Origin: an uncultured Flavobacteriaceae bacterium
GTDB taxonomy: Bacteria; Bacteroidota; Bacteroidia; Flavobacteriales; Flavobacteriaceae
Length of the DNA: 64,000 nt
Direction of reading: 5' to 3'
Assembly (NCBI GenBank): GCA_947500525.1
Contig: CANMSH010000007.1
Coordinates: 1 to 64,000 of the forward strand
Positions 5,499 to 64,000 of the stretch are shown piece by piece. Position 1 is the first letter of the stretch; every line of letters starts with the position of its first letter. A program made the position numbers and the translations under genes. Below the pieces are notes generated by a model. The model saw nothing but the letters and a program-made list of their open reading frames with translations. It did not search any database and had not been told where the DNA came from.

Positions 5499-5522
5499 AT
5501 GAGGAGCTTATATGCTCCTCAT
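5499..5522 (+). other. Intercistronic hairpin ATGAGGAGC-TTATAT-GCTCCTCAT between adhesin and PorP/SprF gene
   Basis: Perfect 9-bp inverted repeat with 6-nt loop and no T-tract. It overlaps the ORF-track start at 5512; ATG at 5533 (MSKKIIFSILAF...) is the likelier start. Confidence 0.7.
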
Positions 5523-5532
5523 ACGATATATT

Positions 5533-46119: not shown

Positions 46120-46256
46120 TTTATGAGATTAATTGAGGAGTGGTTTTCTCCAAATTTGGATAAAAAATATGACTACTATTCTTTTCAATTATAGATATAA
46201 AACTATATTTGATATTCTTTAGTAAAACAAGGTTTCAATCAGTAAAAAGAAGGTAC

Positions 46257-47738
46257 GTGTATAATATAGGTTTTGATTTAGGTAGTTCTTCAGTAAAAGT
46301 GGCGATAACGGATGCTATTTCGGGTAAGAAAGTAATTAGTTTACATGAACCAATTGAAGAGATGCCGATTATTGCATTGCAAAGTGACTGGGCTGAACAA
46401 GATCCGATGAGTTGGTGGTATTATCTATGTACAGCTTCAAAGAAAGCGATAGCTACATCTAAAATTGATGCTGCTAAAATTACGGCGATAGGTATATCGT
46501 ATCAGATGCATGGTTTGGTAATAGTTGATGAAATGGGAGCACCTCTTCGAGATGCAATTATTTGGTGCGATAGCCGAGCTGTTGCTATTGGAAACAAGGC
46601 TTATAATGATTTGGGTAAAGATGTATGTGGGGCGCAGTTCTTGAATTCTCCTGGAAACTTTACAGCTTCAAAATTAAAATGGGTCAAAGAGAATGAACCA
46701 GAGATTTACGATAAGATTTACAAATATATGTTACCAGGTGATTTCATTTCGTATCAATTAACTGGCGAAATTGCAACCACTAAAAATGGTTTGTCTGAAG
46801 GTATTCTTTGGGATTATAAAAACAATACCGTTGCTTCGAAATTGTTAAATTATTATGGCATCGATCAAGATCTAACACCTTCAATTGTTGAGAATTTTTC
46901 TGTTCAAGGAGCTGTTCATGAATTGGCTGCAGAAGCAACTGGTTTGCCAAAAGGAATTCCGGTGACTTATCGGGCTGGAGATCAACCTAACAATGCCTTG
47001 TCATTAAATGTTTTTAATGCTGGTGAGGTAGCTATGACGGGAGGTACTTCTGGGGTGGTGTACGCCGTTACAAATAATGAAAGTCCAAATGAAGTTGAAA
47101 GGATAAATCATTTCGCACATGTTAATCATACCAATGATAATTCTTCTATTGGAAAGCTATTATGTATTAATGGAGCTGGTATACAATATAGATGGTTAAA
47201 GAATATTTGTGGAGAGAAAACATATGAAGAAATGAATGCGAAAGTCGCATCTGTACCTATTGGTTCTGAAGGAGTAGTAGTTCTTCCATTTGGTAATGGA
47301 GCAGAACGAATGTTGTACAATAAGAATGTAGGAATGCATCTATTGAATGTGAATTTAAACGGACATAGTAATGGCCATTTGTATAGGGCGGCACTCGAAG
47401 GTATTGCTTTTTCTTTTGTTTATGGCGTCAATATTATGGAAAAAGATGAAGTAGATATTCAAGTGATGAAAGCGGGTAATGACAATTTATTTCGATCAGA
47501 AATTTTCTCGAATACAGTTGCATCATTATTAGGGAAAGAAATTGAAATTTATAATACTACGGGGGCCGTTGGAGCTGCTAGAGCTGCAGGTTTGTTAGAT
47601 GGTGATTTTTCGAAATTTGGTGAACATAGTATCAACAATGATTTTGTAAAAACGTTTACTCCTGTAAAAAATACAGAAGCTTACCAAGAAGCGTATCAAA
47701 AGTGGTTACAAGAGTTAGAAGTCATCTTAAAAAAGTAG
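46257..47738 (+). CDS. xylB: Xylulokinase-like FGGY carbohydrate kinase
   Basis: GTG start giving VYNIGFDLGSSSVKVAI; QSDWAEQDPMSWW; GISYQMHGLVIVDEMGAPLRDAIIWCDSRA; GTSGVVYAV. Confidence 0.85.
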   Translation: MYNIGFDLGSSSVKVAITDAISGKKVISLHEPIEEMPIIALQSDWAEQDPMSWWYYLCTASKKAIATSKIDAAKITAIGISYQMHGLVIVDEMGAPLRDAIIWCDSRAVAIGNKAYNDLGKDVCGAQFLNSPGNFTASKLKWVKENEPEIYDKIYKYMLPGDFISYQLTGEIATTKNGLSEGILWDYKNNTVASKLLNYYGIDQDLTPSIVENFSVQGAVHELAAEATGLPKGIPVTYRAGDQPNNALSLNVFNAGEVAMTGGTSGVVYAVTNNESPNEVERINHFAHVNHTNDNSSIGKLLCINGAGIQYRWLKNICGEKTYEEMNAKVASVPIGSEGVVVLPFGNGAERMLYNKNVGMHLLNVNLNGHSNGHLYRAALEGIAFSFVYGVNIMEKDEVDIQVMKAGNDNLFRSEIFSNTVASLLGKEIEIYNTTGAVGAARAAGLLDGDFSKFGEHSINNDFVKTFTPVKNTEAYQEAYQKWLQELEVILKK

Positions 47739-47819
47739 CTACAATTCTTTTTTCATTTAGGGTCTGTATTTTTCGATATATCTGACTGATTTTTTGGAGA
47801 AGCTAATATTTTTAGTTAG

Positions 47820-47840
47820 TTTCGTATACGGTATACGAAA
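47820..47840. promoter_or_regulatory. Perfect 21-bp palindrome, candidate GntR operator
   Basis: TTTCGTATAC-G-GTATACGAAA, 10 bp upstream of the preferred gntR ATG at 47851. Confidence 0.75.
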
Positions 47841-47850
47841 TGATCTAAAT

Positions 47851-48489
47851 ATGGCTAAAATCTTTAACAACGAATTGAGTTTACAGGCTTACAAGGAAGT
47901 AAGAGAAATGATTATATCTAAAAAATTAGCTCCTGGGCAAAAGATCGTTCAAGATAAGTTAGCTGAAAATTTAGGGATTAGTAGAACCCCTTTGCGATCT
48001 GCATTACAGATGCTCGAAGGTGAAGGATTAATCGAATCTGCTCCAAAGAAAGGGGTTATTGTTAAAGAATTTAGCAATCATGAAATTGTAGAAATTTATG
48101 ATTGTAGAATAGCACTTGAACGTACTGCTGTAGGTCTATTCGCTGATCGTGTTTCTGATAGTGACATTGAAAAACTACGAAGTTTGTTTGAGCCATTCTT
48201 AAAAGGAGATATAGATGATTTCGAATATCAAAAGGCTGATGCCGAATTTCACGACTATATGATTCGTAATAGCGGAAATTCCTTTCTCCACAGAATTTTT
48301 CAACAAAGTAACTTATTAGTTTGCATTGATTCCCTTGGGTTATTAAGACCATCAAAAGAAACGCTGACTGAGCATATAGAAATTATAGATGCTTTAGAAA
48401 AAAGAGATGCTAACTTGGCGGAATCTTTAATTGTCTCGCATTTAGATATCACAAAGCAATTAATCCTTAATGAAATAAATGAGCACTAA
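47851..48489 (+). CDS. GntR family (FadR/FCD-type) transcriptional regulator
   Basis: AYKEVREMIISKKLAPGQKIVQDKLAENLGISRTPLRSALQMLEGEGLIESAPKKGVIVKEFS; FCD-like helical C-terminus. Confidence 0.92.
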   Translation: MAKIFNNELSLQAYKEVREMIISKKLAPGQKIVQDKLAENLGISRTPLRSALQMLEGEGLIESAPKKGVIVKEFSNHEIVEIYDCRIALERTAVGLFADRVSDSDIEKLRSLFEPFLKGDIDDFEYQKADAEFHDYMIRNSGNSFLHRIFQQSNLLVCIDSLGLLRPSKETLTEHIEIIDALEKRDANLAESLIVSHLDITKQLILNEINEH

Positions 48490-49744
48490 AGGAACTTTTT
48501 TTCCTGTTCGATATCGTATGGTTATCGGAACTTTCATTTTGTCTATGATCGTATTATTTGATCGTATCCTAATTTCTGTTGCAAAAGATCCGGTGGCAAC
48601 TGACCTTGCACTTTCCGATAAACAAATGGGGTGGGTACTTTCTATATTCGCCTTAGGTTACGCCTTATTTCAAACACCTTCGGGATACTTAGCAGATAAG
48701 TATGGAGCGAGAAAAACACTAGCAATCATTGTGAGCCTTTGGTCTCTTTTTACTGCATTGACGGGCGCTGTTTATAATTTTTTTGTTCTTGTCGTTGTGC
48801 GATTTCTCTTTGGCGTAGGAGAGGCAGGAGCTTTTCCGAGTATGTCGCGAGCTATTTATAGTTGGATTCCAGTAAAAGAGCGCGGGATTGTTCACGGTAT
48901 CAATTTTTCAGGAGGAAGAATTGGTGCAGCCATCGCCTTACCTATTGTAGCTTGGCTTATTGATCAAACAAGTTGGCGAGCTAGTTTCGTAATTCTTGGA
49001 GGTATCGGGATAATTTGGGCAGTTATTTGGTATTGGTGGTTTAGAGACGATCCAGCAAATCATCCATCGGTTAATGACGAAGAATTAAATGTAATACGTA
49101 AAAATGTTCAAGAAAACAACGTTGAAAAAGAAACTATCTCGCTAAAAAAACTGTTTAAATCACCCGTGATGTGGTTGTTAATGGGTCAGTATTTTAGCAG
49201 TAATTTCACTTTTTTCTTCTGTTTGACATGGTTGTTTCCTCATTTGAAAGCAAAGTACAATTTAGATGTTATTGAGGCCGGATTGTACACTTCGGCACCA
49301 TTTGTTTTCGGTGCCTTAGGAAATTGGGTGTCAGGATATATGGTGGATGCTATTTATAAAATGAATAAATGGGAACTATCTCGAAAATTACCGGCAATTA
49401 TCGGTTTCGCTTTAGCGGCAATTGGTATTATTGGAAGTATCTATATGACTGAAATAGTAGGTGCTATTATTTTTATCTCATTAGCGGTTTTTGGTGCTGA
49501 TATGACTTTAAGTCCGTCATGGTCAGCTTGCGTAGATATTGGCAAGGAACACTCAGGTGCTGTTAGCGGCACTATGAACATGGCAGGTAATTTGGGCTCA
49601 TTTGTCACAGCGTTAGCATTCCCATATATGGTGGCATTTACAGGTTCTCACACACCATTTTTTGTGCTTGCGGCCGTATTGAATTTATTGGCGATACCCA
49701 TGTGGCTGGTAATTAAACCTCAAAAAATCGTGAAATTAATATAA
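48479..49744 (+). CDS. MFS transporter (anion:cation symporter / hexuronate-type)
   Basis: YALFQTPSGYLADKYGARKTLAIIVSLWSLFTALTGA; RFLFGVGEAGAFPSMSRAIYSWIPVKERG; overlaps gntR end. Confidence 0.92.
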   Translation: MSTKGTFFPVRYRMVIGTFILSMIVLFDRILISVAKDPVATDLALSDKQMGWVLSIFALGYALFQTPSGYLADKYGARKTLAIIVSLWSLFTALTGAVYNFFVLVVVRFLFGVGEAGAFPSMSRAIYSWIPVKERGIVHGINFSGGRIGAAIALPIVAWLIDQTSWRASFVILGGIGIIWAVIWYWWFRDDPANHPSVNDEELNVIRKNVQENNVEKETISLKKLFKSPVMWLLMGQYFSSNFTFFFCLTWLFPHLKAKYNLDVIEAGLYTSAPFVFGALGNWVSGYMVDAIYKMNKWELSRKLPAIIGFALAAIGIIGSIYMTEIVGAIIFISLAVFGADMTLSPSWSACVDIGKEHSGAVSGTMNMAGNLGSFVTALAFPYMVAFTGSHTPFFVLAAVLNLLAIPMWLVIKPQKIVKLI

Positions 49745-49754
49745 GAGTCAAATC

Positions 49755-50315
49755 ATGATAAAATTTGAAGAATTTAAAGAAGTATGTGGTAGATCGATAG
49801 AAATGATTGAGGCTGCAGGGTTGTTTCTTACGCCAGAAGATAAAGAAAAAATGACCGCTGCTGATTTTGGATTAAGTCGAATCAAAGAAGAAGGAGTACA
49901 AATACTTACTATGTTTCAAACAGATCGAATAGCGGGAAAGATTTTGGTACTCTTGCCTTATCAAACCGAGCCAGAACATTGGCATCCTACCGTTGGAGAA
50001 GACGCAGGTAAAGAAGAGGTAATTAGAGCGATTAACGGAGAGTTGTATTTCTATATTCCAGGAGAAGATACTATGAAGCATGGTTTTATCGTAGATGGAA
50101 AAGAAAGTTGCTATACAATGAGAAATGAAGTGGTGATGCAACCAGGTGATCAATTGATCCTTCCGGCAGGAACAAAGCATTGGTTCCAAGCGGGCGAAAA
50201 GGGAGCTGTTATGTATTCTTTTTCAACGACTGTAACAGATTTGTTAGATCAATTTACAGATCAAGATATAGTTAGAGAAACGGTTATAGAGAAAGCGCCA
50301 AATGATGTGCATTAA
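49755..50315 (+). CDS. D-lyxose isomerase-like cupin (D-lyxose/D-mannose family sugar isomerase)
   Basis: EPEHWHPTVGEDAGKEEVIRAINGELYFYIPGEDT...MQPGDQLILPAGTKHWFQAG, carrying the cupin HxH, E and H metal ligands. Confidence 0.85.
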   Translation: MIKFEEFKEVCGRSIEMIEAAGLFLTPEDKEKMTAADFGLSRIKEEGVQILTMFQTDRIAGKILVLLPYQTEPEHWHPTVGEDAGKEEVIRAINGELYFYIPGEDTMKHGFIVDGKESCYTMRNEVVMQPGDQLILPAGTKHWFQAGEKGAVMYSFSTTVTDLLDQFTDQDIVRETVIEKAPNDVH

Positions 50316-50345
50316 AGCATCCATAAAGAATCAAAAAATATACAA

Positions 50346-51305
50346 ATGAAACAAAGTATAATTACAGCATTTTTAAGCAAGACACAAGATAGGTTTTCAG
50401 AATATCAGAAACCAACAGGCTTGAAAGAGCGCCTTGAAATTGTTCAAAAAATAGATGGTGTAACTGGTATAGAAATCGTTTATCCTTATGAAACGGAAGA
50501 TCCAGGAGATACTAAGAAGATGATGCAAGAAATGGGTTTGGAATTTGCTGCAGTAAATGCAAATATTAAAAAAGAGACAAAATGGGTGCCAGGAGCCCTG
50601 TCTCGACCAAAAGAAAATTTACGTAATGAAGCGGTACAGTTAATTAAAGATGCGAAAGATTATGCCTTGGCAGTTGGAGCACCTCTTGTAACGTGCTGTC
50701 CATTATCAGATGGCTATGATAATTTGTTTCAGGTCGACTATGAAAAAGGATGGAAGTATATGATTGATGCTTTCGCCGAAGCGGCTGACTATAAACCAGA
50801 AGTACCTTTGTTCGTTGAGTATAAAATAAATGAAACAAGAGTAAACTGCTTTTTAGATAGCTGTGCAAAGACAATTGTTTTCTTGAAAGAGGTGGCCAAT
50901 GCAGCTACAGGAGTAACGATTGACTTTGGACATTCATTATTAGCAAAAGAAAATCCAGCAGAAATATTGGCAATGTGTGAGCATTCGAATGTAGATTATT
51001 ATTTACATACAAATGATAATGATTGGCAATTTGACTGGGATCTTATAGGAGGGTCAAGAAATTTTTTACATACCGTAGAATTTTTCTTTTATGCAAAAGA
51101 GTTCGGGTATGATAAGTATTTCACGGCCGATGCATCACCTAGAATTTTCGATATGGTCAGTTTTTTTACCGAACATGCAGAAATGAATAAAGCGATATGG
51201 AATATTGTAGAGAAGTTAGATCGTACTAAATATAGACGTTTGATGCAAGAAGAGAGACATATGGATTTAATGAAATTAGTAAGAAAAGAAATTTACAGGC
51301 TATAA
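50346..51305 (+). CDS. Sugar phosphate isomerase/epimerase-like TIM-barrel protein
   Basis: VTGIEIVYPYETEDPGDTKKMMQEMGLEFAAVNANI; VTIDFGHSLLAKENPAEILAM; YYLHTNDNDWQFDWDLIGGS. Confidence 0.85.
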   Translation: MKQSIITAFLSKTQDRFSEYQKPTGLKERLEIVQKIDGVTGIEIVYPYETEDPGDTKKMMQEMGLEFAAVNANIKKETKWVPGALSRPKENLRNEAVQLIKDAKDYALAVGAPLVTCCPLSDGYDNLFQVDYEKGWKYMIDAFAEAADYKPEVPLFVEYKINETRVNCFLDSCAKTIVFLKEVANAATGVTIDFGHSLLAKENPAEILAMCEHSNVDYYLHTNDNDWQFDWDLIGGSRNFLHTVEFFFYAKEFGYDKYFTADASPRIFDMVSFFTEHAEMNKAIWNIVEKLDRTKYRRLMQEERHMDLMKLVRKEIYRL

Positions 51306-51331
51306 TAAGGCCTTCTAAAAAAATTACATTT

Positions 51332-54139
51332 ATGAAACGTCTATTTTATTTGAAAAATACCCTGACAAGCTTAATATTCTTGATCTTCCTATCGAGTTGT
51401 AATCAACAAAACGACAAAGATTGGCAATGGGAAACTATAGCTGCAAATGGTGAACCTACTGCGAGACATGAGGCAGGGTTGATAGCTTTTGAAGATAAAA
51501 TTTTGCTTATTGGCGGCCGACGAATAAATGCAACTGACGAATTCGATACAAATACGAATACTTGGACAGCGAAATCACCAACTCCCATTGAATTGCATCA
51601 CTTTCAACCTGTAGCTATAGATGATGCTATTTATTTAATTGGGGCAATGACAGGGAAATGGCCAAATGAAAAACCTCTCGATAGAGTCATTATTTATTAT
51701 CCCAAAAAAGATGTTTATGAGTATGGAGATGAGATACCCGAAGATCGCAGAAGAGGTGGTGCAGGAGTGGTTACGTACAACAATAAAATATATGTCATTG
51801 GAGGTATTGTCAACGGACATGTCGATGGTTACAAACCATGGTTTGATGAGTATGATCCCAAGACGGGCGAATGGAAAGTTCTAGATGATGCTCCAGATGC
51901 AAGAGATCATTTCAATGCAGCAATTGTCAATGATAAATTGTACGCTTTCGCAGGTCGCAGAACCTCTAAAAGAACAAATCAAGATATGGCGTTGACCAGC
52001 AGTCATGGTAACGTGTATAATTTTTCTACAAACCAATGGGAAATTGTTACTAATAATTTAGCCATTCCTACCCAACGAGCCGGGAATGCTGCTTTTGCTT
52101 GGAATGATGAAATTATTGTTGGTGGTGGTGAAAGTAGTTCGCAAGAAGCAGCACATAGTGAGGTAGAGTCATATAACAGTAAGACGAAAACATGGAGCTC
52201 ATGGCCTTCATTTAAACAAGGTCGACACGGTTCGGGTTTCGCCGTCGTTAACGACTATGTATATACTGCTTCAGGTAGTGGAAATAGAGGAGGTGGTCCG
52301 GAACTCACTACTATCGAACGACTAAAATTACCAACACGTACAAAAAACAGAAATAATGGGGTGGCCGATATGACTGCTGTCTATAAAAAATGGCATACCA
52401 TTTCATTGGCGTTTGAAGGTCCTAACACATCAGAATTGGACGAAGATAATCCATTCTTAAATTATGCTCTCAATGTTGTTTTTAAACATGAAAAAAAGGA
52501 GTATAAAGTACGCGGATTTTATGCTGCCGATGGTAACGCTTCAGAAACAGGTGCTAGTAAAGGAAATGTTTGGAAAACTAGATTTACGCCAGATATGATT
52601 GGAAAATGGACCTATACAGCAACATTATATCAGGGTGATAGCATTGCACTAGAGAATGATTTTTCAAAAGGAAAGTCGATTAAAATTAGCAATTCAACTG
52701 GGCAATTTGTGGTTAGGAATTCTGACAAAGACAAGGTAGATTTTAGAACCAATGGTAGATTAAAAGCATATAAAGGTTATTATAAATTTCAAGATTCTGA
52801 TAATTATTGGATAAAGGGAGGGGCGAATAGTCCTGAAAATTTGCTGGCGTATACAGATTTTGATGATACCTATCGGATGCAAGGACAAAACGAAGAAGGA
52901 GAGGCCAGTGTTACTGAAGTGATACATTCTTTTGAGCCACATTTAAAAGATTGGAAGCAAGGCGATCCCACTTGGAAAAACGGAAAAGGAAAATCGTTAA
53001 TTGGAGCATATAATTACCTGGCAAGTAAAGGTATGAATTCATCTTATTTCTTAACAATGAACATTTTAGGAGATGGGAAAGATGTTTGGCCATATGCGAA
53101 TCCGAAAGATGTGATGAGATTTGATGTGAGCAAATTAGCGCAATGGGAAATAGTCTTTGAACATATGCAGTCAAAAGGCATTTTACTTCATATGGTTCTG
53201 CAAGAAACAGAAAATGAAACGATGCTCGATAATGGTGATACAGGTAAGACCAGACAATTATATTTAAGAGAACTCATAGCTCGTTTTGGTCATCATTTAG
53301 CGTTAACCTGGAACCTTGGCGAAGAAAATGGTCCAGCATCATGGTCTCCAATTGGTCAAAATGATCGCCAGCGAAAAGCAATGGCTAAATTCTTAAAGGA
53401 TAATGATCCTTATAAACATCCTGTGTTATTACATACCCATGCTTACGATCCTTTGAGAAGCACAGTGCTAGATTCTATTGTAGGGTATAAATATGTTGAT
53501 GGATTATCCCTTCAACAAGATAAGAGAGAATTGGCCGCTGGGGTGGTAGAATCCTGGAAAGATAAAGCCAAGAAAAATGGGCATGAATGGTTGATTACAA
53601 TGGATGAGATTGGAATGTGGCATACAGCAGCTTTACCTGACAATGTAGATCCTAATCACGATACGCTCCGCAGTTATGTTCTTTGGGGAACTTTGTTATC
53701 AGGAGGAGCTGGAATAGAATGGTATTTTGGCGCAAAATTTCCTCATAACGATTTGACCTCTGAAGATTGGCGTCAAAGAGATCGATTATGGGAATTAACA
53801 AACCATGCGCTTACTTTTTTTCAGCAGCATATACCGTTTTGGGAAATGGAAGCAGCAAATAAGTTGACCAATGCTAAGAACGCATATTGCTTACAAAAAA
53901 AGGGTCAAACCTATGCCTTATACTTTCCTAAAACAGGACAACATACACTAGATTTATCGGATGTGTCGGGTGATTTTAGTATTGAATGGTATGATCCGTT
54001 AAACGGAGGAGCCTTACAAAAGGGGTCATTAGAAAAAATTGAAGGTGGCGCTATTAGAGTACTCGGCAAAGCACCAGTTCGAAAGATGCATTCAGAGGAA
54101 AAGGACTGGGTTTGTCTAGTGAGAAAAATAAATGAATAG
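51332..54139 (+). CDS. Lipoprotein fusion: N-terminal Kelch repeats + DUF5060 + glycosidase-like domain
   Basis: Lipobox LSSC; Kelch units (KILLIGGRRINATDEFDTNTNTW; IYVIGGIVNGH...FDEYDPKTGEWK); YKKWHTISLAFEGPNTSELDEDNPFLNYALNVVFKHEKKEYKVRGFYAADGNASETGA; TWNLGEENG and DEIGMWH. Confidence 0.82.
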   Translation: MKRLFYLKNTLTSLIFLIFLSSCNQQNDKDWQWETIAANGEPTARHEAGLIAFEDKILLIGGRRINATDEFDTNTNTWTAKSPTPIELHHFQPVAIDDAIYLIGAMTGKWPNEKPLDRVIIYYPKKDVYEYGDEIPEDRRRGGAGVVTYNNKIYVIGGIVNGHVDGYKPWFDEYDPKTGEWKVLDDAPDARDHFNAAIVNDKLYAFAGRRTSKRTNQDMALTSSHGNVYNFSTNQWEIVTNNLAIPTQRAGNAAFAWNDEIIVGGGESSSQEAAHSEVESYNSKTKTWSSWPSFKQGRHGSGFAVVNDYVYTASGSGNRGGGPELTTIERLKLPTRTKNRNNGVADMTAVYKKWHTISLAFEGPNTSELDEDNPFLNYALNVVFKHEKKEYKVRGFYAADGNASETGASKGNVWKTRFTPDMIGKWTYTATLYQGDSIALENDFSKGKSIKISNSTGQFVVRNSDKDKVDFRTNGRLKAYKGYYKFQDSDNYWIKGGANSPENLLAYTDFDDTYRMQGQNEEGEASVTEVIHSFEPHLKDWKQGDPTWKNGKGKSLIGAYNYLASKGMNSSYFLTMNILGDGKDVWPYANPKDVMRFDVSKLAQWEIVFEHMQSKGILLHMVLQETENETMLDNGDTGKTRQLYLRELIARFGHHLALTWNLGEENGPASWSPIGQNDRQRKAMAKFLKDNDPYKHPVLLHTHAYDPLRSTVLDSIVGYKYVDGLSLQQDKRELAAGVVESWKDKAKKNGHEWLITMDEIGMWHTAALPDNVDPNHDTLRSYVLWGTLLSGGAGIEWYFGAKFPHNDLTSEDWRQRDRLWELTNHALTFFQQHIPFWEMEAANKLTNAKNAYCLQKKGQTYALYFPKTGQHTLDLSDVSGDFSIEWYDPLNGGALQKGSLEKIEGGAIRVLGKAPVRKMHSEEKDWVCLVRKINE

Positions 54140-54292
54140 CTCGAAATGAAGTAAATACTGAATGACGAAATTCTATAAATGAAGTAAACAAAAATAATTA
54201 TTAAACATTACAAAAGTATGAAAGATTGCGAATGCGTTGGACTCTTAAGATCCGATTCCTTTAAATTAAAAATTCAAATTATAACAGATCAA

Positions 54293-55210
54293 ATGCGTTC
54301 GCGGTTTGATAAATTGGTAATTCTTGTTTTTATATGCCTGCTCTGTGTTTCATGTAATGAAACTAAGAATAAGACAGAAGAAGAAAAAGAAGTAGACCCT
54401 ATTGAATGGGTGAATTTGATCGATAAAGATCTCTCAAAATGGGATACTTATTTAAGTTTTAAACACAAAGTAGGTTATGATGGAAGTCATCCGCTTGACT
54501 CTTTAGGAAATAAAATAGCTCCAATAGGTTTGAATCAACCGGGTTATGATGTTTTTTCAACCGTTATGAAGGATAATGAACAAGTCATTAAAGTTACTGG
54601 CGAGTATTATGGATGTTTAGTAACAAAGGAAATATATGACAATTATCATTTTCAATTGAAGTTTAAGTGGGGAGACAAAAAATGGGTTCCTAGAAAAGAT
54701 CGCATGAAAGATTCTGGTATTTTATATCATTCAGTTGGTGATTTTGGAGCAGAACATTGGCGTTCATGGATGATGTCGCAAGAATTTCAAATCATGGAAG
54801 CACATACAGGAGATTTTTGGAGTCAAGCAACCTCAGCAATCGATATACGAGCATTTGCGTCTGAGTCAGGTCTAAATCCTATGGCTCACGAAAGTCAAGA
54901 TTTTCTAAGTTTTGGAGAAAGAGGAGAAGCAGGAAAATATTGCTTGAGAAGTAATAACTATGAGAATGATTCGGGAGAATGGAATACGCTCGATTTGGTT
55001 TGCTATAATGGTAAAAGTTTGCATATCGTAAATGGTGAAGTTGTGATGGTATTGAAAGATTCGCGATATATCAATGAAAATGGCGAAGTAATGCCTTTAG
55101 AAAAAGGTAAAATTCAGTTACAGAGTGAAGCTGCTGAACTATTCTTTAAGGAAATTAAAATTAGACCAATTGCGGAGCTGTCTTCAAAACATGCAGCTTA
55201 CTTTGAATAA
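54293..55210 (+). CDS. DUF1080 (3-keto-glycoside hydrolase-like) lipoprotein
   Basis: MRSRFDKLVILVFICLLCVSCNE; YYGCLVTKEIYDNYHFQLKFKWG...RKDRMKDSGILYHSVGDFG...WRSWMMSQEFQIMEAHTGDFW. Confidence 0.85.
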   Translation: MRSRFDKLVILVFICLLCVSCNETKNKTEEEKEVDPIEWVNLIDKDLSKWDTYLSFKHKVGYDGSHPLDSLGNKIAPIGLNQPGYDVFSTVMKDNEQVIKVTGEYYGCLVTKEIYDNYHFQLKFKWGDKKWVPRKDRMKDSGILYHSVGDFGAEHWRSWMMSQEFQIMEAHTGDFWSQATSAIDIRAFASESGLNPMAHESQDFLSFGERGEAGKYCLRSNNYENDSGEWNTLDLVCYNGKSLHIVNGEVVMVLKDSRYINENGEVMPLEKGKIQLQSEAAELFFKEIKIRPIAELSSKHAAYFE

Positions 55211-55323: not shown

Positions 55324-55842
55324 TTAATCGTTTACATCAACCAACAGCTGGTGAAAAGACTTTAATTTTTCATCTTCGTTGATCAATTTACTCATACATG
55401 CTTCTAAAAATAGCAAGAAGGTTTTTTTCTCTGATTCGTTAAAACCTTCTGTTAAATATTTTATTACTCCAAAACGAGAAGGCTGAGTTCTATTTACCAA
55501 AGCAATGCCTTCTTTAGTTAATCTCAGTCTCTTTTTTCTTCTGTCAAATTCATCCTCGTATTGTTTGATAAGTCCTTTATCTAACAATACACTTATTAAA
55601 TTTGTAATATTGGCTCTAGTCACATTTAACGAATCTGCCAATTCACTTGCCATAAGTGCTTTATCATGTTTTTCTCTTTTGAAAAAAGGTAAATTAGGGT
55701 TATTGGCTAAATGTAATAATATAAGCCATTGTTGCGTAGTTAATCCCACCTTTTGATACACTTCATCTCCAATTTTCTTTAGTTGATTTGCCAAATCAAA
55801 AATGCTCATCACTATAGATTCTTCAATACTTTTTTCTATCAT
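55324..55842 (-). CDS. MarR family transcriptional regulator
   Basis: VGLTTQQWLILLHLANNPNLPFFKREKHDKALMASELADSLNVTRANITNLISVLLDKGLIKQYEDEFDRRKKRLRLTKEG. Confidence 0.93.
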   Translation of the reverse strand: MIEKSIEESIVMSIFDLANQLKKIGDEVYQKVGLTTQQWLILLHLANNPNLPFFKREKHDKALMASELADSLNVTRANITNLISVLLDKGLIKQYEDEFDRRKKRLRLTKEGIALVNRTQPSRFGVIKYLTEGFNESEKKTFLLFLEACMSKLINEDEKLKSFHQLLVDVND

Positions 55843-55890: not shown

Positions 55891-56904
55891 TTAGTGATGC
55901 AGCTTTTTTATAACTTTTAATTGTGTTTTTATAAACAAATCTTTGTTAGGGGTTTCATTTTTAAATGAATTAGCTGGATAATGACTGAATGATTGATATG
56001 AAGGCGCGTATAGTTCAAAACGTTGTCTTGCAATATAATTTTGCATCGATACTTTAGATCTATAATTTCGTAAGGCCATAATATCAACATAACTATTACC
56101 AACTATACTTTCTCCTGCACTCGCTTCTGCAAGTACATGTCCTTCATAATGAATCACTTTTGATCCTCCATTCGTACTTGAATGAGGAATGTCGATTCCA
56201 GAAATTCCACCAGAGTTTGCAGATATAACATAGGCCATATTTTCAATAGCTCTGGCTCTTTTCGCAATTTCTTTATGTGTTAACTGCGGGCTGCTCGTTT
56301 CTGAAGAAGAGTGCAAGAATACTTCTGCTCCTCTCATAATTAAACAACGTGCTATTTCGGGATATAAAATTTCTTCAGAGGCGATACAAGCCAGTTTACC
56401 TAATTTTGTATCTGCTACTGGGAAGAAAGAATCTTCACCATAAATTTTTATGTATTCGTCCATGACGTCGTGCGGTGTAGGGGCGAACATAGAATTTAGA
56501 CGTCTGTATCGAAGTATTAGTTTTCCTTCGTCATTTATAATAAAACTACTCTGAAAATATAGGTTTGGAAAATGTTCATCTAATTCATAGAAGTTTCCAG
56601 ATAAAAATACCTGTTCTTGAATACAAAATTCTTTCATTTGAACAAATAAATCGTCCTTTATACTAATACAAGCTTTTTCTTTCCATTCCTGTAAATTTTC
56701 TCCAAAAGGAAAACTTGTTAAAAAATACTCAGGCAAGACAATCAATTTTAAATCTGGACCAAGAAACCTTTTAGCTGCGCGAACTTGCGCAAGTACCTTG
56801 TGTAAGGTCTTTTGCATTAGTGCATAACTCGAATCTCTGTCTTCACATAAATTAATTGCTTGACATTCAGTTTGCAATGCTAAAGATTTATATCGATCTA
56901 TCAC
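55891..56904 (-). CDS. Carbon-nitrogen hydrolase (nitrilase superfamily)
   Basis: LKLIVLPEYFLTSFPFGEN (Glu), RYRRLNSMFAPTP (Lys position reads R), KLACIASEEILYPEIARCLIMRGAEVFLHSSSE (Cys position reads A-C-I-A), ARAIENMAYVISANSGGISG. Confidence 0.82.
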   Translation of the reverse strand: MIDRYKSLALQTECQAINLCEDRDSSYALMQKTLHKVLAQVRAAKRFLGPDLKLIVLPEYFLTSFPFGENLQEWKEKACISIKDDLFVQMKEFCIQEQVFLSGNFYELDEHFPNLYFQSSFIINDEGKLILRYRRLNSMFAPTPHDVMDEYIKIYGEDSFFPVADTKLGKLACIASEEILYPEIARCLIMRGAEVFLHSSSETSSPQLTHKEIAKRARAIENMAYVISANSGGISGIDIPHSSTNGGSKVIHYEGHVLAEASAGESIVGNSYVDIMALRNYRSKVSMQNYIARQRFELYAPSYQSFSHYPANSFKNETPNKDLFIKTQLKVIKKLHH

Positions 56905-56933
56905 AGAATAGCTATTTATTTTAGTAATATTAC

Positions 56934-56962
56934 AAAAATAGTTAATTATATTAACTATTAAC
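56934..56962 (-). promoter_or_regulatory. Operator/promoter element 1 of the MarR-locus family, upstream of the nitrilase gene
   Basis: Minus strand GTTAATAGTTAATATAATTAACTATTTTT(G); contains perfect palindrome AATAGTTAAT-TAT-ATTAACTATT (56937-56959) and ends in a TATTTTTG -7-like box. Confidence 0.7.
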
Positions 56963-56995
56963 GTAATTTATCTTTTTTTATTTAACATATTTTCA

Positions 56996-58066
56996 TTAAT
57001 CCTGTGTTTCAAAATTTAGTTCGGTCGCTGGTGTATTTTTAGGTTTCTCTTTTTTCTCAATTATTTGCCAACTAACCCCCGCTGTATCAGTAAAGATAAA
57101 AGAAGATTCATCAAATTCGTTTTGTTGAATTTTTGAAGGTTTTAGTTCATGATCTTTTACCAATTTATGAACCATTTTTAATTTTGGAGTGTAAAAAGAA
57201 TGCAACGTAATTCCTTTTTCTCCTATACGTTGATGCGAAGATTTATTGGGTTTGTTCCCGTTAGGGATGAAGAACTTTAATTTTCCACAGATATTGTTTG
57301 CCGAAACAAAGCCTTGGTACCAATGACTAAACCCAGGTTCCATCTGAAAAACTCTTTTAGGTCCTTTAAGCCAATCGCCGTCGATCGCAGGATCCTCTTC
57401 GGCGATTAAGCCTAGTGCTGTAGATAAATAGGACATTTGATCCATCGATGTGGCATCAATAATAAAATCGTGATGTGTAAATTCACTGGTCTTTAGTTTA
57501 GAACTTGGTGTAATGGTTCCATATCCTGGTATTGAGTAACCGTAACGTTGAAAAAAGATATGATTGAAAAACTCACCGTATACGGCATTTTCTCGCACTA
57601 AAACGGGTCGATTAAAAAAATCTCGATCACCTGTGTTGAGACCAAAAAGATCATCAGCAATAGGTTCAGTTGGCAACCAAGGTTTTTTACCAACATCTCT
57701 GGCAGTTTGATAAATATCATACAATCTAAAAATGTCATTGGTGCGCATAACAGCAATACGAGACCCAATGGTTTCAACTGGCGCATAACCTATGCCATTT
57801 CCAAGAGGTTCGTCCCACTCTAAAATTCGAAGCAGCCCATGGCTATCTATACTACCATTTTGTAAACGATACGAGGTTAATTTAGAATTGACACCATAAA
57901 TTTTTTGAGCTTCTTCAGATCGAATCGAACGCTTCATAGTTACCTCAAAACCAAAATCAGCAAAGTATTTTATGGCGTATTCAGCATTCTGAACACCAAG
58001 CATTACTTCATAAACACCGCTAATACCGGTATTAGGAATCTTTTGAGTTATTGTTTTGGAAGACAT
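56996..58066 (-). CDS. VOC (glyoxalase/dioxygenase fold) family protein
   Basis: GVYEVMLGVQNAEYAIKYFADFGFEVTMKR...GSRIAVMRTNDIFRLYDIYQ...TDTAGVSWQIIEKKEKP. Confidence 0.75.
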   Translation of the reverse strand: MSSKTITQKIPNTGISGVYEVMLGVQNAEYAIKYFADFGFEVTMKRSIRSEEAQKIYGVNSKLTSYRLQNGSIDSHGLLRILEWDEPLGNGIGYAPVETIGSRIAVMRTNDIFRLYDIYQTARDVGKKPWLPTEPIADDLFGLNTGDRDFFNRPVLVRENAVYGEFFNHIFFQRYGYSIPGYGTITPSSKLKTSEFTHHDFIIDATSMDQMSYLSTALGLIAEEDPAIDGDWLKGPKRVFQMEPGFSHWYQGFVSANNICGKLKFFIPNGNKPNKSSHQRIGEKGITLHSFYTPKLKMVHKLVKDHELKPSKIQQNEFDESSFIFTDTAGVSWQIIEKKEKPKNTPATELNFETQD

Positions 58067-58106
58067 AGAAAAGGTTCAAGTAGTACAGTAACAGGTGTAA
58101 TCATAG

Positions 58107-59102
58107 TTATACGGTTAAAATAAGTTTGCCAAAGTTTTCTCCTGTATATAACATTTTGAGCGTACTAGGAAAATTATCTAATCCATGAACGACATGTTCT
58201 TTTGGATGTATTTTTTTCTCCTGTATCCATGTCGCAATTTCTTTAGCGGCTTCTGGCCATTGACTTACATAATCAAAGACTATAATTCCGTTAAGTACTC
58301 CGCGGGCTGTTACAATTTTCATATAATTTTGAGGACCATGAATGTTAGCCATATCATTATATTGAGAAATAGCTCCACATATGGTAACGCGAGCACCTTG
58401 TGCCAAATTTGCCAAAGCAATATCTAATATCGGACCTCCAACATTATCATAAAAAATATGCACGCCTTTAGGAGCATATTCTTTAAGTTTTGCATCAATA
58501 TCATCTGTTTTATAATTTATCGCATGATCGAAGCCACATTCATTAATTAAGTAATCACATTTGGCATCTGTACCAGCAGAACCAATAACGACACAACCTT
58601 TAATTTTGGCAATTTGCCCAACTGTGGAGCCTACAATTCCTGCCGCCCCCGATATAAAAACGGTTTCGCCCTTTTGAGGCTTGCCTTTTTCTAGTAAACC
58701 GAAATACGCGGTCATTCCTGGCATTCCTAGGATGCCTAAGTGATATGATAATTTGCCATTTGAAATATCCAACTTACTCAATCCCGTACCGTCAGAAATA
58801 CTGTAATTTTGAACTCCTAAAAGTCCAGAGACATAATCCCCTTCTTTGAAAGAATCATTCTTAGTTGCAACTACTTTTCCAGCTGAAAATGAGCGCATAA
58901 CGGCACCTATTTCTACACCTTTAATATAGGTGGTTCCCTCATTCATCCAACCTCTCATTGCTGGATCCAACGAAATAGCCTCTATTTTGATGAGTAGCTC
59001 TCCATCTTTAAGATCTCTTACTCTTTCGGTAAGTATGTCAAAATTACTTTCGGTTACTGCTCCTTTTGGTCTATTTGCGAGTATTACTTTTGTATTGTTC
59101 AT
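58107..59102 (-). CDS. NADP-dependent MDR oxidoreductase (CurA/alkenal reductase-like)
   Basis: LANRPKGAVTESNFDI...LSLDPAMRGWMNE...GMPGMTAYFGLLEKGKPQKGETVFISGAAGIVGSTVGQIAKIKGCVVIGSAGTDAKC...IFYDNVGG. Confidence 0.92.
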   Translation of the reverse strand: MNNTKVILANRPKGAVTESNFDILTERVRDLKDGELLIKIEAISLDPAMRGWMNEGTTYIKGVEIGAVMRSFSAGKVVATKNDSFKEGDYVSGLLGVQNYSISDGTGLSKLDISNGKLSYHLGILGMPGMTAYFGLLEKGKPQKGETVFISGAAGIVGSTVGQIAKIKGCVVIGSAGTDAKCDYLINECGFDHAINYKTDDIDAKLKEYAPKGVHIFYDNVGGPILDIALANLAQGARVTICGAISQYNDMANIHGPQNYMKIVTARGVLNGIIVFDYVSQWPEAAKEIATWIQEKKIHPKEHVVHGLDNFPSTLKMLYTGENFGKLILTV

Positions 59103-59148
59103 AGTTGCTCTCTTGATAATTCAATAATTATTATGGTATAAAATTAAA

Positions 59149-59178
59149 AAAAAATAGTTAACATTGTAAATAATTAAC
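59149..59178 (-). promoter_or_regulatory. Operator/promoter element 2, facing the CurA-like gene
   Basis: Minus strand GTTAATTATTTACAATGTTAACTATTTTTT, 28/30 identical to element 4. Confidence 0.72.
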
Positions 59179-59195
59179 TAATTTAACTATTTTAA
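59166..59195 (+). promoter_or_regulatory. Operator/promoter element 3, facing the alpha/beta hydrolase gene
   Basis: GTAAATAATTAACTAATTTAACTATTTTAA, 24/30 identical to element 4, overlapping element 2 in opposite orientation. Confidence 0.62.
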
Positions 59196-59209
59196 TTTAA
59201 ACAAGTACA

Positions 59210-60241
59210 GTGAATCGCAGTAAATATGTTCGGGTAAGAGGTAAAAGATTACATCTACAAGTATTAGGTGCTGGACCAGCATTGGTGTTAATGCACCCAT
59301 CACCACACACCTCTGAATTATTAATGCCTTTGGCAACCGAATTGTCCTCCAAATTTACAACAATATGTATTGACACGCCAGGTTATGGTAAATCTGACGA
59401 TTTAGGATTTGAACCAAACTCGTTGGAGGATTATACCGAATTTTTGCATGAGGCTTTTACTGAGTTAAATTTAGTTCGTCCTTTTCTTTATGGTTCGGCA
59501 ACTGGTGCCCAATTAGCAGTGCGTTATGCTTTGAACTACCCAAATGAAGTCGCTCATGTGTTTTTAGATAATTCCGCACATTTTGGAGATGATCTAAGAG
59601 CTAGAATTTTAGAAAACTATTTTCCCGATTTAACGCCTAAAGTTGATGGCAGTCATTTAACTAAAGTTTGGCAGATAGTAAGTCAAATAGGATTGTATTT
59701 TCCATGGTGTTTTACTACCGAGGAATATGCATTAAATCGACCTCAAATGCCGAAGGAATTAAGACATTACATCGCTAAAGATTTTCTAATAGCGGGAGCT
59801 AATTACGATCATGCCTATCGCGTAGCCTTTTTACATGAGAAAGGCGAATATGTACAAATGCTAAAAGTACCTACAACTATCTACAATTGGAAGGGTAGTA
59901 TCATTGCAGACTATATTGATGCTTTGGTAAGTTTTAAGATGCCGACGAATGTGAAGGAAGTGAAGCTACCAGAAGGTAAGGAGGAACGAAATACAAGAAT
60001 GACACAGCATATGATGACAAAATCGAGTGGAAAAGCATGCGAAATAAAAAATGTTCTGAATCCCGAAGATTGTGACCTACCAACAAAAATAAATTATCAA
60101 ATTCCGAAAGGTGCACGACCCGCAATATCTGACGATGGAACATATTTAAGAATTGCATGGGGAAATTTGGTTGAAGTTAACCCAGATTTAACACCAGAAG
60201 AAATTCAAACTAGTTTGATAAATTGGTATTCGAACCAATAA
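59210..60241 (+). CDS. Alpha/beta hydrolase-fold protein with non-canonical nucleophile elbow (GSATG)
   Basis: GTG start; RGKRLHLQVLGAGPALVLMHPSPHTSELLMPLATELSSKFTTICIDTPGYGKSDD; LYGSATGAQLAVRYALNYP. Confidence 0.85.
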   Translation: MNRSKYVRVRGKRLHLQVLGAGPALVLMHPSPHTSELLMPLATELSSKFTTICIDTPGYGKSDDLGFEPNSLEDYTEFLHEAFTELNLVRPFLYGSATGAQLAVRYALNYPNEVAHVFLDNSAHFGDDLRARILENYFPDLTPKVDGSHLTKVWQIVSQIGLYFPWCFTTEEYALNRPQMPKELRHYIAKDFLIAGANYDHAYRVAFLHEKGEYVQMLKVPTTIYNWKGSIIADYIDALVSFKMPTNVKEVKLPEGKEERNTRMTQHMMTKSSGKACEIKNVLNPEDCDLPTKINYQIPKGARPAISDDGTYLRIAWGNLVEVNPDLTPEEIQTSLINWYSNQ

Positions 60242-60250
60242 ACAATTTGT

Positions 60251-60988
60251 ATGAGAAAACAAATAATAATATGCTGTATTTTAGTTGTATTTGCAGCGTG
60301 TAAAGAAGTTGAAAAGAAAACAGATGTTCTGAACGAAGAACTGTCTGAGTACGCAGGTGAATGGGATAATTTTCTACAAGTTTGGCAAGAAAATACTGCA
60401 GATGACATCCATCGTACGGAGGTTGATCAAAAACATAAACATTATCATTTAAGTATTTCAGAAAACGAGAATGATAGTCTTTATATTTCGATTTCTAAGG
60501 GAAGAAATGGTAAAAATTTTGTAGAAAAAATTAGTGTAGCTAAAGTGTCTCTGCGGATTGATGTCGACACTCTCTTTGTTTCAGGTTTAAATCATTTTGA
60601 AAATAAGAATTCGTATAAATTTATCAGAGCAAGAACTTTTTCTGGTTGGCTTGAATATCCAATGAAGCAATATAAAGACAGTGTGTATCGTCAAGGAAAT
60701 CTTGAAATTCATGACCAAGGAGGAATGGCCGAAATTGATATTGAAGGTGTGCGGTACACAGCTGAACTCACCCAATTAGTTTACGGGAAACGGTTGGCAA
60801 TAATGAAACTTGCGATTTATGATATGCCAATGGATAGTGTAGGGATAAATAGCAGATCAATATGTTATACTTGGGTGAATCCGAAGGCTAAGCGTATAGG
60901 TATCAATTTAAGAAAAATGATTACTGGTTGGACACTCATAGAGCCAGGTTTTCAAAATCAAAATACCTGGAGAAAAGAGAAGCAATAA
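60251..60988 (+). CDS. Hypothetical lipoprotein
   Basis: MRKQIIICCILVVFAACKEVEKK (lipobox FAAC); no family recognised. Confidence 0.65.
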   Translation: MRKQIIICCILVVFAACKEVEKKTDVLNEELSEYAGEWDNFLQVWQENTADDIHRTEVDQKHKHYHLSISENENDSLYISISKGRNGKNFVEKISVAKVSLRIDVDTLFVSGLNHFENKNSYKFIRARTFSGWLEYPMKQYKDSVYRQGNLEIHDQGGMAEIDIEGVRYTAELTQLVYGKRLAIMKLAIYDMPMDSVGINSRSICYTWVNPKAKRIGINLRKMITGWTLIEPGFQNQNTWRKEKQ

Positions 60989-61027
60989 GTGGAGGTTTTA
61001 GTTTAATAATCATGTGATACATATACT

Positions 61028-61774
61028 ATGATACGTATAAAGTACAACTCAAAGGATACTTTCGTTGTTGTTATTGGGGCGAACAGTGGAATTGGCATGT
61101 CACTTTGCAAGCAATTGTTAGAAAGCAATGTAATTGTTTTTGGCGTAGACATTCAAGAAAAGACCGAAACAATAATCGGTGAAAATTATACGTATTTTCA
61201 AGCAAACCCTTTAGATCTTGATGAGTTTAGTAATTTAATAGAAGAAATTAAGAAGATAACACCTTTCATTAACGGTTTGGTAAATTTATCTGGAACTATT
61301 CATAATTTTAAATTGATTGAGGAAACATCACTAGAGGAATGGAATCAAACATATGATATTAGCTTTAAGAGTTCTTTTAATAGCGTTAAAGCCTTCGTTC
61401 CGTTGCTAAAGAAAGCTGAGCGAGCTTCGATCGTAAATATGTCTTCTGGTTTGGCATTTGCAGGACAAAGAAACTATGGTTCATATGCAACCGCGAAGAA
61501 TGCAATCGTTAGTTTTAGTCGAACTTTAGCAACCGAACTTGCACCATCCATAAGGGTCAATACAGTGGCGCCAGGAGCAGTGGATACCAATTTTATTTAT
61601 ACAGAAGATGGTTCTATGAGGTTTGATAAAGACACATATGAAAAAATCGTTCCTTTAGGTACGATTGCAAAACCAAAAGAAATAAGTCAGGTAATTCTGT
61701 TTTTACTCAGTGAGGGAGCGAGTCATATTACAGGACAATCCATACATATCAATGGGGGTGCCATGATGCTTTGA
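61028..61774 (+). CDS. Short-chain dehydrogenase/reductase (SDR)
   Basis: VVVIGANSGIGMSLCKQLL; NLSGT; NMSSGLAFAGQRNYGSYATAKNAIVSFSRTLATELAPSIRVNTVAPGAVDTNF. Confidence 0.92.
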   Translation: MIRIKYNSKDTFVVVIGANSGIGMSLCKQLLESNVIVFGVDIQEKTETIIGENYTYFQANPLDLDEFSNLIEEIKKITPFINGLVNLSGTIHNFKLIEETSLEEWNQTYDISFKSSFNSVKAFVPLLKKAERASIVNMSSGLAFAGQRNYGSYATAKNAIVSFSRTLATELAPSIRVNTVAPGAVDTNFIYTEDGSMRFDKDTYEKIVPLGTIAKPKEISQVILFLLSEGASHITGQSIHINGGAMML

Positions 61775-61799
61775 GGTGAATAAATTAATTATTAACTAT

Positions 61800-61829
61800 G
61801 TTAATAATTAACAATGTTAACTATTTTTT
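61800..61829 (+). promoter_or_regulatory. Operator/promoter element 4, facing the downstream VOC gene; part of a larger palindromic block 61785-61821
   Basis: GTTAATAATTAACAATGTTAACTATTTTTT; also perfect palindrome TTAATTATTAAC-TAT-GTTAATAATTAA at 61785-61811. Confidence 0.72.
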
Positions 61830-61843
61830 GTATCTTCGGCTCT

Positions 61844-62800
61844 ATGTTTAAGCTAAAAACCATTTTAGAAGTTGTTTATAGCGTTGGTGATCTTGCTAAA
61901 GTACAGCACTTTTTCTGTAATTATGGAGGGTTAACGACCGCTGGAAAATATAAAACCGATCGTTCGGTACTTGATTTTTGGAATTTAGATGAATCTGCTG
62001 AGGGAAACGAGGTATTAATTCAGTTTGATACGCATCCATCAGGAAAGATTCGATTGGTGAAATATAATAACATCGACCAAGAGTATATTCGTTCTTCTCA
62101 AAATCCTTGGGATACAGGAGGAATCATGGATATTAATTTGCGTGTGCCAGAAGTGGCTCAAACTTTTAATGAATTACGGGATTTGGGTTGGCATGGATTG
62201 AGTGATCCTTTATTGCAAAAAATGGGTCCGTTTGAGTTGTATGATATTTTGATGAAAGGATATGACGATATAATTATTGCTTTTACACATCGTGTGCAGC
62301 CTCCTTTAGAATTACCCGAAGGATATAAAATACCATCACATGTGTACAATTCTTCCTTAACAGTGAGAGACCTCCAGTTAACGAAAGAATTCTATGCAGA
62401 TACCTTGGGGTTTTCTATATTAAATGAATATGAGGTTAACAAAGATGAACCAATTGAAAATATGTTTGGAATTCCAATGAATATGATAGAAGATGTCACC
62501 TGCAAGGCAACTATATTTTCATTGGATGGTACCAGAGATGTGATGTTTCAGGCATGTGAATTTGAAGGTCTGGAAGGGAAGGATTTTTCTGATTTAGCAA
62601 TTCCGCCAAACAGAGGTTTGTTATTATATCGTTGCGAAGTTGAAAATGTACACAATTATTATAATTCACTCATAGGAAAGGGTTTGAATATACACCAACC
62701 TTTACAAGAAATAAACATAGAGCCATATGGTAAAGTGAATTGCTTTGCTCTCAAAAGCCCCGATGGGGTTTGGTGGGAATTTTTAGAAACTAACACTTAA
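61844..62800 (+). CDS. VOC (glyoxalase/dioxygenase fold) family protein, two-domain
   Basis: ATG at 61844 preferred because the track start (61814) lies inside the operator; LEVVYSVGDLAKVQHFFCNYGG..., HVYNSSLTVRDLQLTKEFYADTLGFSILNEYEV...SPDGVWWEFLET. Confidence 0.78.
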   Translation: MFKLKTILEVVYSVGDLAKVQHFFCNYGGLTTAGKYKTDRSVLDFWNLDESAEGNEVLIQFDTHPSGKIRLVKYNNIDQEYIRSSQNPWDTGGIMDINLRVPEVAQTFNELRDLGWHGLSDPLLQKMGPFELYDILMKGYDDIIIAFTHRVQPPLELPEGYKIPSHVYNSSLTVRDLQLTKEFYADTLGFSILNEYEVNKDEPIENMFGIPMNMIEDVTCKATIFSLDGTRDVMFQACEFEGLEGKDFSDLAIPPNRGLLLYRCEVENVHNYYNSLIGKGLNIHQPLQEINIEPYGKVNCFALKSPDGVWWEFLETNT

Positions 62801-62811
62801 ACTTTATACAA

Positions 62812-63711
62812 ATGAAAATTAAAATCGCACTCTTCTTTAGCTTGTTGTTTGCATTAAATTTACAAGCCCAAAAAATGGAATTTGAAGGTGAAAAAGCTTT
62901 AGAAATACGACAAAAAACAACATGTAATACTCTAGAAGAAGGAAAACCTGTATACGGCATGTGGGAAGGTAGAATTTATAGTAGAGTTCAAGGTGAAAAA
63001 GATCGTCATTTATTTAATGTAGTAGGTATCAATGTGCGTCAATGTGATTGCGTTGATGATCCGGTGAGAGGTAAAGGATTTAGAAGTGTGGGTCGTGAAA
63101 TAATGATGTACTTAGATCCTAAAACAAATGAAATTATGGATACTTGGGAAAATCCTTGGACAGGAGATACGGTAGACGTTGTACACGTTGCTAATGACCC
63201 GGTGAGCATGAGAGGATATGTATATGAAAAAGATAAAGAAGGCAAGGTTTCAGCGAAAACAAGCTTCCGAAAGTATGGTGAAGTTGCGGTGACATCATAT
63301 GAAATACCCCTTTTCTACAACAACCCACTCTCTGGAGATTACCAGAAATATGTAGGCGGTACCTATCACGCTATGGAAATTTTTAACACATACTATAAAG
63401 CCGAAGAATTGACAAATTCTAAGATCAAAGACCTGAGTCAATCAAATATTTCATGGTCGCGTATTTCTCAATGGTTGCCATGGATGGAAATGGGGAGTAG
63501 ACCTGGTTGGATTATTGCCAACGCCACAGGCGAAAGTATCTTAGAGAAAGAAAAAGTATGGCCTCGACTTCAAAAAATATTAAAAGAGCGCTATCCAATA
63601 TATGCAAACCCTCCAGCAAAAGATGATAAAAGATCTAATGAGACTTCTTGGACCGTGTTTAAAAAATTCTTAGCAGATAAAGGAGCGAAAACAGAAAAAT
63701 CTAAACATTAA
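62812..63711 (+). CDS. DUF1838 family secreted protein
   Basis: Signal peptide; KPVYGMWEGRIYSRVQGEKDRHLFNVVGINVRQC...KGFRSVGREIMMYLDPKTNEIMDTWENPWTGDTVDVVHVANDPVSMR. Confidence 0.82.
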   Translation: MKIKIALFFSLLFALNLQAQKMEFEGEKALEIRQKTTCNTLEEGKPVYGMWEGRIYSRVQGEKDRHLFNVVGINVRQCDCVDDPVRGKGFRSVGREIMMYLDPKTNEIMDTWENPWTGDTVDVVHVANDPVSMRGYVYEKDKEGKVSAKTSFRKYGEVAVTSYEIPLFYNNPLSGDYQKYVGGTYHAMEIFNTYYKAEELTNSKIKDLSQSNISWSRISQWLPWMEMGSRPGWIIANATGESILEKEKVWPRLQKILKERYPIYANPPAKDDKRSNETSWTVFKKFLADKGAKTEKSKH

Positions 63712-63721
63712 TTAATCAATT

Positions 63722-64000
63722 ATGGCACTAATTGTTGGACAAAAAGCACCAAACTTTAAACTAGTAGGTACCGATTTAGAACCGATTAACTTGGATGATT
63801 ATAAAGGAAAAAATCTCATTTTACATTTTTTTCCATTGGCGTTTACAAGCGTCTGTACAGAACAGCTATGTACGGCAAACGGCGAAGAGAATGATTATGC
63901 TTCACTAAATGCAGAAGTTGTTGGGGTATCCGTAGATTCTCCTTTTGTATTGGATAAATTTTCTAAAGAGAATAAGTTGAATTTCCTATTGGGATCTGAT
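63722..64000 (+). CDS. Peroxiredoxin (truncated at window end)
   Basis: Not in ORF track; MALIVGQKAPNFKLVGTDLEPINLDDYKGKNLILHFFPLAFTSVCTEQLCTANG...VVGVSVDSPFVLDKFSKENKLNFLLGSD. Confidence 0.9.
   Translation, partial: MALIVGQKAPNFKLVGTDLEPINLDDYKGKNLILHFFPLAFTSVCTEQLCTANGEENDYASLNAEVVGVSVDSPFVLDKFSKENKLNFLLGSD

Follow-up and report, generated by a model that had tools for sequence, protein, structure and literature searches.

An inverted, A+T-rich sequence recurs between genes along the first 64 kb of contig 7 (CANMSH010000007.1) of an uncultured Flavobacteriaceae bacterium (GCA_947500525.1, 3.59 Mb), and the question that this locus raises is which protein reads it and to what end. The window, i.e. 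the whole stretch of 64,000 nucleotides that was analysed, contains a gene for a winged-helix protein of the MarR family (marR, 172 amino acids, 55324-55842, minus strand) next to a cluster of enzyme genes. We consider it very probable that the repeats are the operators of this protein and that it represses through them a catabolic regulon, large parts of which are located beyond the end of the window.

An earlier note on this DNA had described four copies of the element, each facing a different gene; the positions and strands were correct and the identities (28/30, 24/30 and 24/29) hold on recount. Common to the four is a 23 base pair (bp) palindrome, AATAGTTAAC-NNN-GTTAACTATT. Operator D (56933-56963, centre 56948, minus strand) is a single palindrome before a nitrilase gene and marR. 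Operators B (59149-59179, centre 59164, minus strand) and C (59165-59195, centre 59180, plus strand) are the halves of one pair in a divergent promoter, B on the side of a CurA-like gene and C on that of an alpha/beta hydrolase gene, and operator A (61799-61829, centre 61814, plus strand) precedes an operon that starts with the gene of a VOC protein (VOC-2). In order to avoid circularity, we have scored them with a 31-bp matrix whose training set consisted solely of sites at 23 orthologous loci in other genomes. In a scan of 140 kb of contig 7 they reached 35.3 (D), 23.1 (B), 24.4 (C) and 33.6 bits (A), against a best score of 10.8 bits in twenty Markov shuffles of the same length. A second, weaker palindrome that was absent from the earlier note (61783-61813, centre 61798, plus strand, 17.1 bits) is found 16 bp upstream of A, the same spacing as in the pair of B and C. 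Inverted repeats are present at the promoters of the putatively regulated genes, as is typical of MarR-type operators.

The distribution of the motif over the genome, which was scanned by pattern, is very uneven. Only 12 palindromes were found with up to three mismatches (a single one with the reversed pattern) and nine of these fall inside 65 kb of contig 7 (56.9-120.8 kb; binomial p about 5e-14). Beyond the window the contig has six further sites, at 79376, 91070, 98175, 100033, 111419 and 120813; the pair 111403/111419 was added by the matrix scan. This region belongs to a 70-kb island (contig 7, 55.3-125.6 kb) that is conserved, with rearrangements, in three other genomes (G026, G217 and G336). 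Each of the island's five divergent gene pairs has a site and the remaining island sites face single gene starts, while none was found inside its genes or in its one listed convergent gap. The unlinked sites face a propionyl-coenzyme A (CoA) carboxylase (pcc) operon (C8:18643), a udk-ftsB-mutA-x-mutB operon that includes methylmalonyl-CoA mutase (C2:13965), a malic enzyme gene (C3:455909, a site of the ATTAG type) and a class V aminotransferase gene (C3:126966, a perfect site), the names of these genes being read from their translations. In G026 and G217 the aminotransferase gene immediately follows marR; here it is unlinked and has its own perfect operator. The genome-wide scan that the earlier note had proposed thus finds the sites confined to one island plus metabolically linked operons, and not common at unrelated A+T-rich intergenic sites, which that note would have taken as refutation. 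Its four copies stand, but the full set amounts to about 14 operators over 70 kb plus four unlinked operons.

The protein itself is a clear member of the family, with 43.1 bits for Pfam MarR_2 (cut-off 27; E-value 4.6e-11) and 35.9 for MarR (cut-off 24.6). Its orthologs are 78-95% identical and their winged helix-turn-helix is nearly invariant. An AlphaFold model from the single sequence was unusable (mean predicted local distance difference test score 49). The nitrilase-type C-N hydrolase gene (55891-56904, minus strand, Pfam CN_hydrolase) is followed after 48 bp by the start of marR on the same strand, an order kept in relatives, and the two probably form one operon with predicted co-transcription. 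Given this arrangement, operator D probably controls marR as well (autoregulation), and the lack of a copy directly upstream of marR, remarked on in the earlier note, needs no further explanation. A site that adjoins the gene of its own regulator is usual for MarR-type operators, and D occupies this place before nitrilase-marR in relatives too.

A way to look at what a bound protein would do is to examine the position of the operators within the promoters. There are two kinds of sites, single strong palindromes and pairs, and the pairs are strictly spaced: in all 20 closely adjacent pairs, taken from four genomes, the two centres are separated by exactly 16 bp, the sequence being TTAAC-N3-GTTAA-N3-TTAAC-N3-GTTAA, and the next distance is 54 bp. 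Since 16 bp corresponds to about 1.5 helical turns, two dimers would be located on opposite faces of the DNA. The -7 element of flavobacterial promoters has the consensus TAnnTTTG at -12 to -5 (PMC9723704), and a separate TAnnTTT box is most frequent at +17 to +19, counted from the operator centre (16 of 60 promoters against 1.7 expected and a shuffle maximum of 6); after operator A, for example, TATCTTCG is found at 61831. With the box at this distance the operator would cover about -41 to -19, i.e. the -33 region and the spacer, a place suited to a repressor.

It is here that the best surviving alternative has to be weighed, namely that MarR, once bound, activates these promoters or has a dual role, instead of simply repressing them. 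Some MarR proteins are known to activate (PMC4737184), the pairs reach further upstream than repression needs, and about 140 bp separate the site of the TonB receptor gene from the start codon. Nevertheless, most characterised MarR proteins repress, according to the CouR study (PMC4737184), and in most of the promoters with a recognisable -7-like box the distance of 17-19 bp would make a protein bound at the operator overlap with RNA polymerase. We regard an activating or dual role as improbable.

The link between the motif and this particular protein comes from comparison with related genomes. In a sample of 400 genomes of the family, this one included, a MarR ortholog (78-84% identity) was found in four of the other 399. 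All five genomes with MarR contain the motif at up to two mismatches (9, 8, 7, 6 and 1 sites) against 8 of the 395 without it, one site each (Fisher p=1.5e-8), and two genomes of the same genus that lack MarR have no site even at up to three mismatches. The motif also appeared in 22 of 23 further named records with MarR (2-10 sites each; one of them, G410, is G026 again). In orthologous promoters, a check that had also been suggested beforehand, the operator columns are 95% identical and the sequences on either side 51-52% (24 nitrilase promoters), and operator D is kept in nearly all of them.

Co-occurrence by itself is unable to separate genes that always travel together, and the palindromes could thus be the operators of another regulator inherited with the island. 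The genome has 11 MarR-like matches, and a LacI-type gene is located at the far edge of the island (contig 7, 125592-126644). The latter was rejected as the reader of the motif because the three sister islands lack it, and among the island proteins scanned (nearly all of them) no further DNA-binding family was detected. More informative is the genome G154. Hydantoinase B, a marker of the island, was found in 4 of the 400 genomes, all with MarR; G154 has marR, neither the nitrilase nor hydantoinase B was found in it, and its operator is retained before the pcc operon, next door to marR. This indicates that the motif is tied to marR and not to the island. Furthermore, the inverted A+T-rich repeat resembles the operators of characterised MarR proteins such as PefR (PMC8044140). 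A different regulator behind the palindromes therefore appears quite unlikely. In G154 marR is beside the pcc/mut operon on C9, and the whole island is present in its genus-mate G336; a second, weaker site in G154 (C10:164804) is flanked by a cysteine desulfurase-like gene and a small open reading frame (ORF).

The earlier note had read the arm common to the four copies as a Bacteroidota -7 box, and it could be argued that the copies resemble each other simply because a sigma factor binds TTAACTATTTT in all of them. For the nitrilase promoter and a few others this holds in part: TATTTTTG or TAATTTTG fits TAnnTTTG (PMC9723704), TATTTTTG overlapping the downstream arm of operator D, and in the promoters of the nitrilase and of hydantoinase B the arm itself may serve as the -7 element. 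For the rest the proposal fails, as the arm (TATTTT or TA(T/A)TTTT) is repeated symmetrically on the side away from the genes, exact TAnnTTTG appears in only 9 of 102 oriented sites, and a separate -7-like box is found about one turn further on. Besides, a generic promoter element would be expected in all flavobacteria. The arm as a shared -7 box is mostly rejected, and sigma factor binding as the source of the similarity is very unlikely. Even less credible are non-regulatory repeats: although at 36% GC perfect palindromes followed by T runs can resemble terminators or hairpins, terminators are rejected because the sites point towards gene starts and hardly occur where marR is missing, and chance or composition because the motif is nearly absent from the 395 genomes without MarR and scores far above the shuffles, the conserved footprint pointing in the same direction.

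Repression by MarR thus remains the preferred explanation, backed by the restriction of the sites to the island and metabolically linked operons, the co-occurrence with MarR and the promoter footprint. Several observations weigh against it. Co-occurrence alone cannot tell repression from activation, and no -33 element is recognisable by eye. At the hydantoinase B gene (120813) just 20 bp separate the operator centre from the start codon that follows, and the geometry of this promoter must differ. Operators B, C and most second halves of pairs are weak, and one genome with MarR (G403, 2.1 Mb, probably incomplete) has no site at up to two mismatches.

In the scheme that we propose, in which binding, repression, ligand and substrate are all predictions, one MarR dimer would recognise AATAGTTAAC-N3-GTTAACTATT or the variant ATTAGTTAAC-N3-GTTAACTAAT, and where palindromes are paired with the 16-bp spacing, as they are in about half of the promoters, two dimers would bind next to each other. 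Bound MarR, covering the -33 region and the spacer, would exclude RNA polymerase. A ligand made from the island substrate would release it and turn on the whole 70-kb island (uptake, oxidation, hydrolysis of amides, imides and lactams, and ring-fragment lyases), with marR itself induced via the nitrilase promoter. The unlinked propionyl-CoA carboxylase, methylmalonyl-CoA mutase and malic enzyme operons would be induced too and drain the products. Judging from the shared operators, a single switch, almost certainly this MarR, would join the island and the propionyl-CoA pathway.

What the island degrades has to be guessed from its enzymes, as identified with Pfam and NCBIfam, most scores being below the equivalog cut-offs. 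It contains VOC proteins, CurA-like and other zinc-type reductases, two nitrilases, three flavin amine oxidases, three DUF1838 proteins, three CpeT/CpcT-like proteins, one DUF3598 and one HapK-like protein. The hydantoinase A/B is nearest to caprolactamase; there are two polysaccharide-deacetylase-fold proteins (one nearest to the allantoinase PuuE), an isochorismatase-fold hydrolase, two LeuCD-like hydratases, an HMGL-like lyase, an HpaI-like aldolase, a CoA-transferase and E1/E2 parts of a 2-oxoacid dehydrogenase. Transport is represented by a TonB receptor and MFS/SBF transporters. This content suggests that the island degrades nitrogen compounds, possibly oligopyrroles or cyclic imides.

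Hydrolysis of lactams, imides and amides, hydration of a substituted maleate and cleavage to propionyl-CoA would fit oligopyrrole pigments. One tentative interpretation, drawn from general knowledge of the enzyme families and in our opinion rather doubtful, is that the genes under these operators encode an undescribed bacterial pathway in which oligopyrroles (bilins, phycobilins or similar pigments) are opened ring by ring. In such a pathway the CpeT/CpcT-like and HapK/DUF3598 proteins would handle the pigment, the caprolactamase-like hydantoinase A/B the lactam, and the PuuE-like and isochorismatase-like enzymes maleimide and maleamate. The LeuCD/DmdAB-like hydratases with the HMGL-like and HpaI-like lyases would convert substituted malates to propionyl-CoA, to be finished by the co-regulated carboxylase, mutase and malic enzyme, and MarR would sense an intermediate. 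The scanned island proteins include neither a haem oxygenase nor a bilin reductase, which weighs against this interpretation. Our literature search returned nothing relevant on DUF1838 or on phycobilin or tetrapyrrole catabolism in these genera, no paper describing such an oligopyrrole pathway, and no Bacteroidota MarR regulon with propionyl-CoA carboxylase.

The remaining genes of the cluster within the window can be described briefly. On the minus strand, the CurA-like NADPH-dependent ene-reductase (58107-59102; NCBIfam CurcmRedCuraProt, 5.5e-106, below the curated cut-off) has downstream of it a VOC-like protein (56996-58066) without a Pfam match. On the plus strand, the alpha/beta hydrolase (59210-60241, Pfam Abhydrolase_1) is followed by a lipoprotein-like ORF without family match (60251-60988) and an SDR oxidoreductase (61028-61774, Pfam adh_short_C2). 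The operon behind operator A then starts with VOC-2 (61844-62800, Pfam Glyoxalase), for which a longer ORF beginning at 61814 is unlikely because this start would be inside the operator, and continues with a DUF1838 protein (62812-63711, Pfam 2.5e-68) and a peroxiredoxin-like protein, named from its sequence, that extends past the window end (63722-64000). On its other side marR adjoins a sugar-type gene cluster (46209-55210) with an FGGY-like kinase, a GntR-type regulator, an MFS transporter and isomerase-like proteins, of which the transporter alone was matched in the sister islands, and distantly (about 32%). Elsewhere in the window two PorP/SprF-like copies (5512-6456 and 18611-19534) are nearly identical past the N terminus, each followed by an OmpA-like gene.

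As a whole, the analysis predicts for marine Flavobacteriaceae a MarR regulon that can be tested and whose operator is defined. Through this operator the 70-kb island, uncharacterised and patchy in its distribution, is tied to the propionyl-CoA pathway. This limits the range of compounds that the island may degrade, and a reporter together with MarR would offer a direct route to the substrate. The strict 16-bp pairing makes the system well suited to the study of cooperative binding by MarR.

Among known systems, this MarR shares detectable similarity with the catabolic or stress repressors BilQ, HpaR and MprA (NCBIfam). However, its scores for the named equivalogs HpaR, MprA, BilQ, AdcR and SlyA are far below the curated cut-offs (at best 37.8 bits against 157), and it thus belongs to none of the BilQ, HpaR and MprA families. 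The winged helix-turn-helix of MepR of Staphylococcus aureus (PDB 4LLN) matches the profile of the orthologs (E about 3e-7) and its GTTAG signature (PMC8044140) resembles the TTAG/GTTA arms found here, but MepR regulates drug efflux (mepRA) and not a catabolic island. PefR, the haem sensor of Streptococcus agalactiae, has nearly the same half-sites (AATAGTT...AACTATT), in a pseudo-palindrome read by the winged helix with the wing in the minor groove; it differs in the spacer between half-sites (8 bp against 9 bp here) and in controlling haem efflux (PMC8044140). As no PefR entry was among the 60 PDB matches listed for the MarR profile, the common half-site may reflect convergence on an A+T-rich MarR site. 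The closest parallel in organisation is the CouR regulon of Rhodococcus jostii RHA1, where, as far as the accessible part of that study describes it (PMC4737184), inverted repeats are found at several catabolic operons and one operator is common to divergent promoters, including that of the regulator's own gene, overlapping the -35 region. The same account gives another repeat sequence and spacing, p-coumaroyl-CoA as the ligand and four promoters against about a dozen plus here, and 16-bp pairs do not figure in it. A MarR regulon is thus of a kind already known, and what distinguishes this one is its size, its strict 16-bp pairing and the unstudied island that it governs in our prediction.

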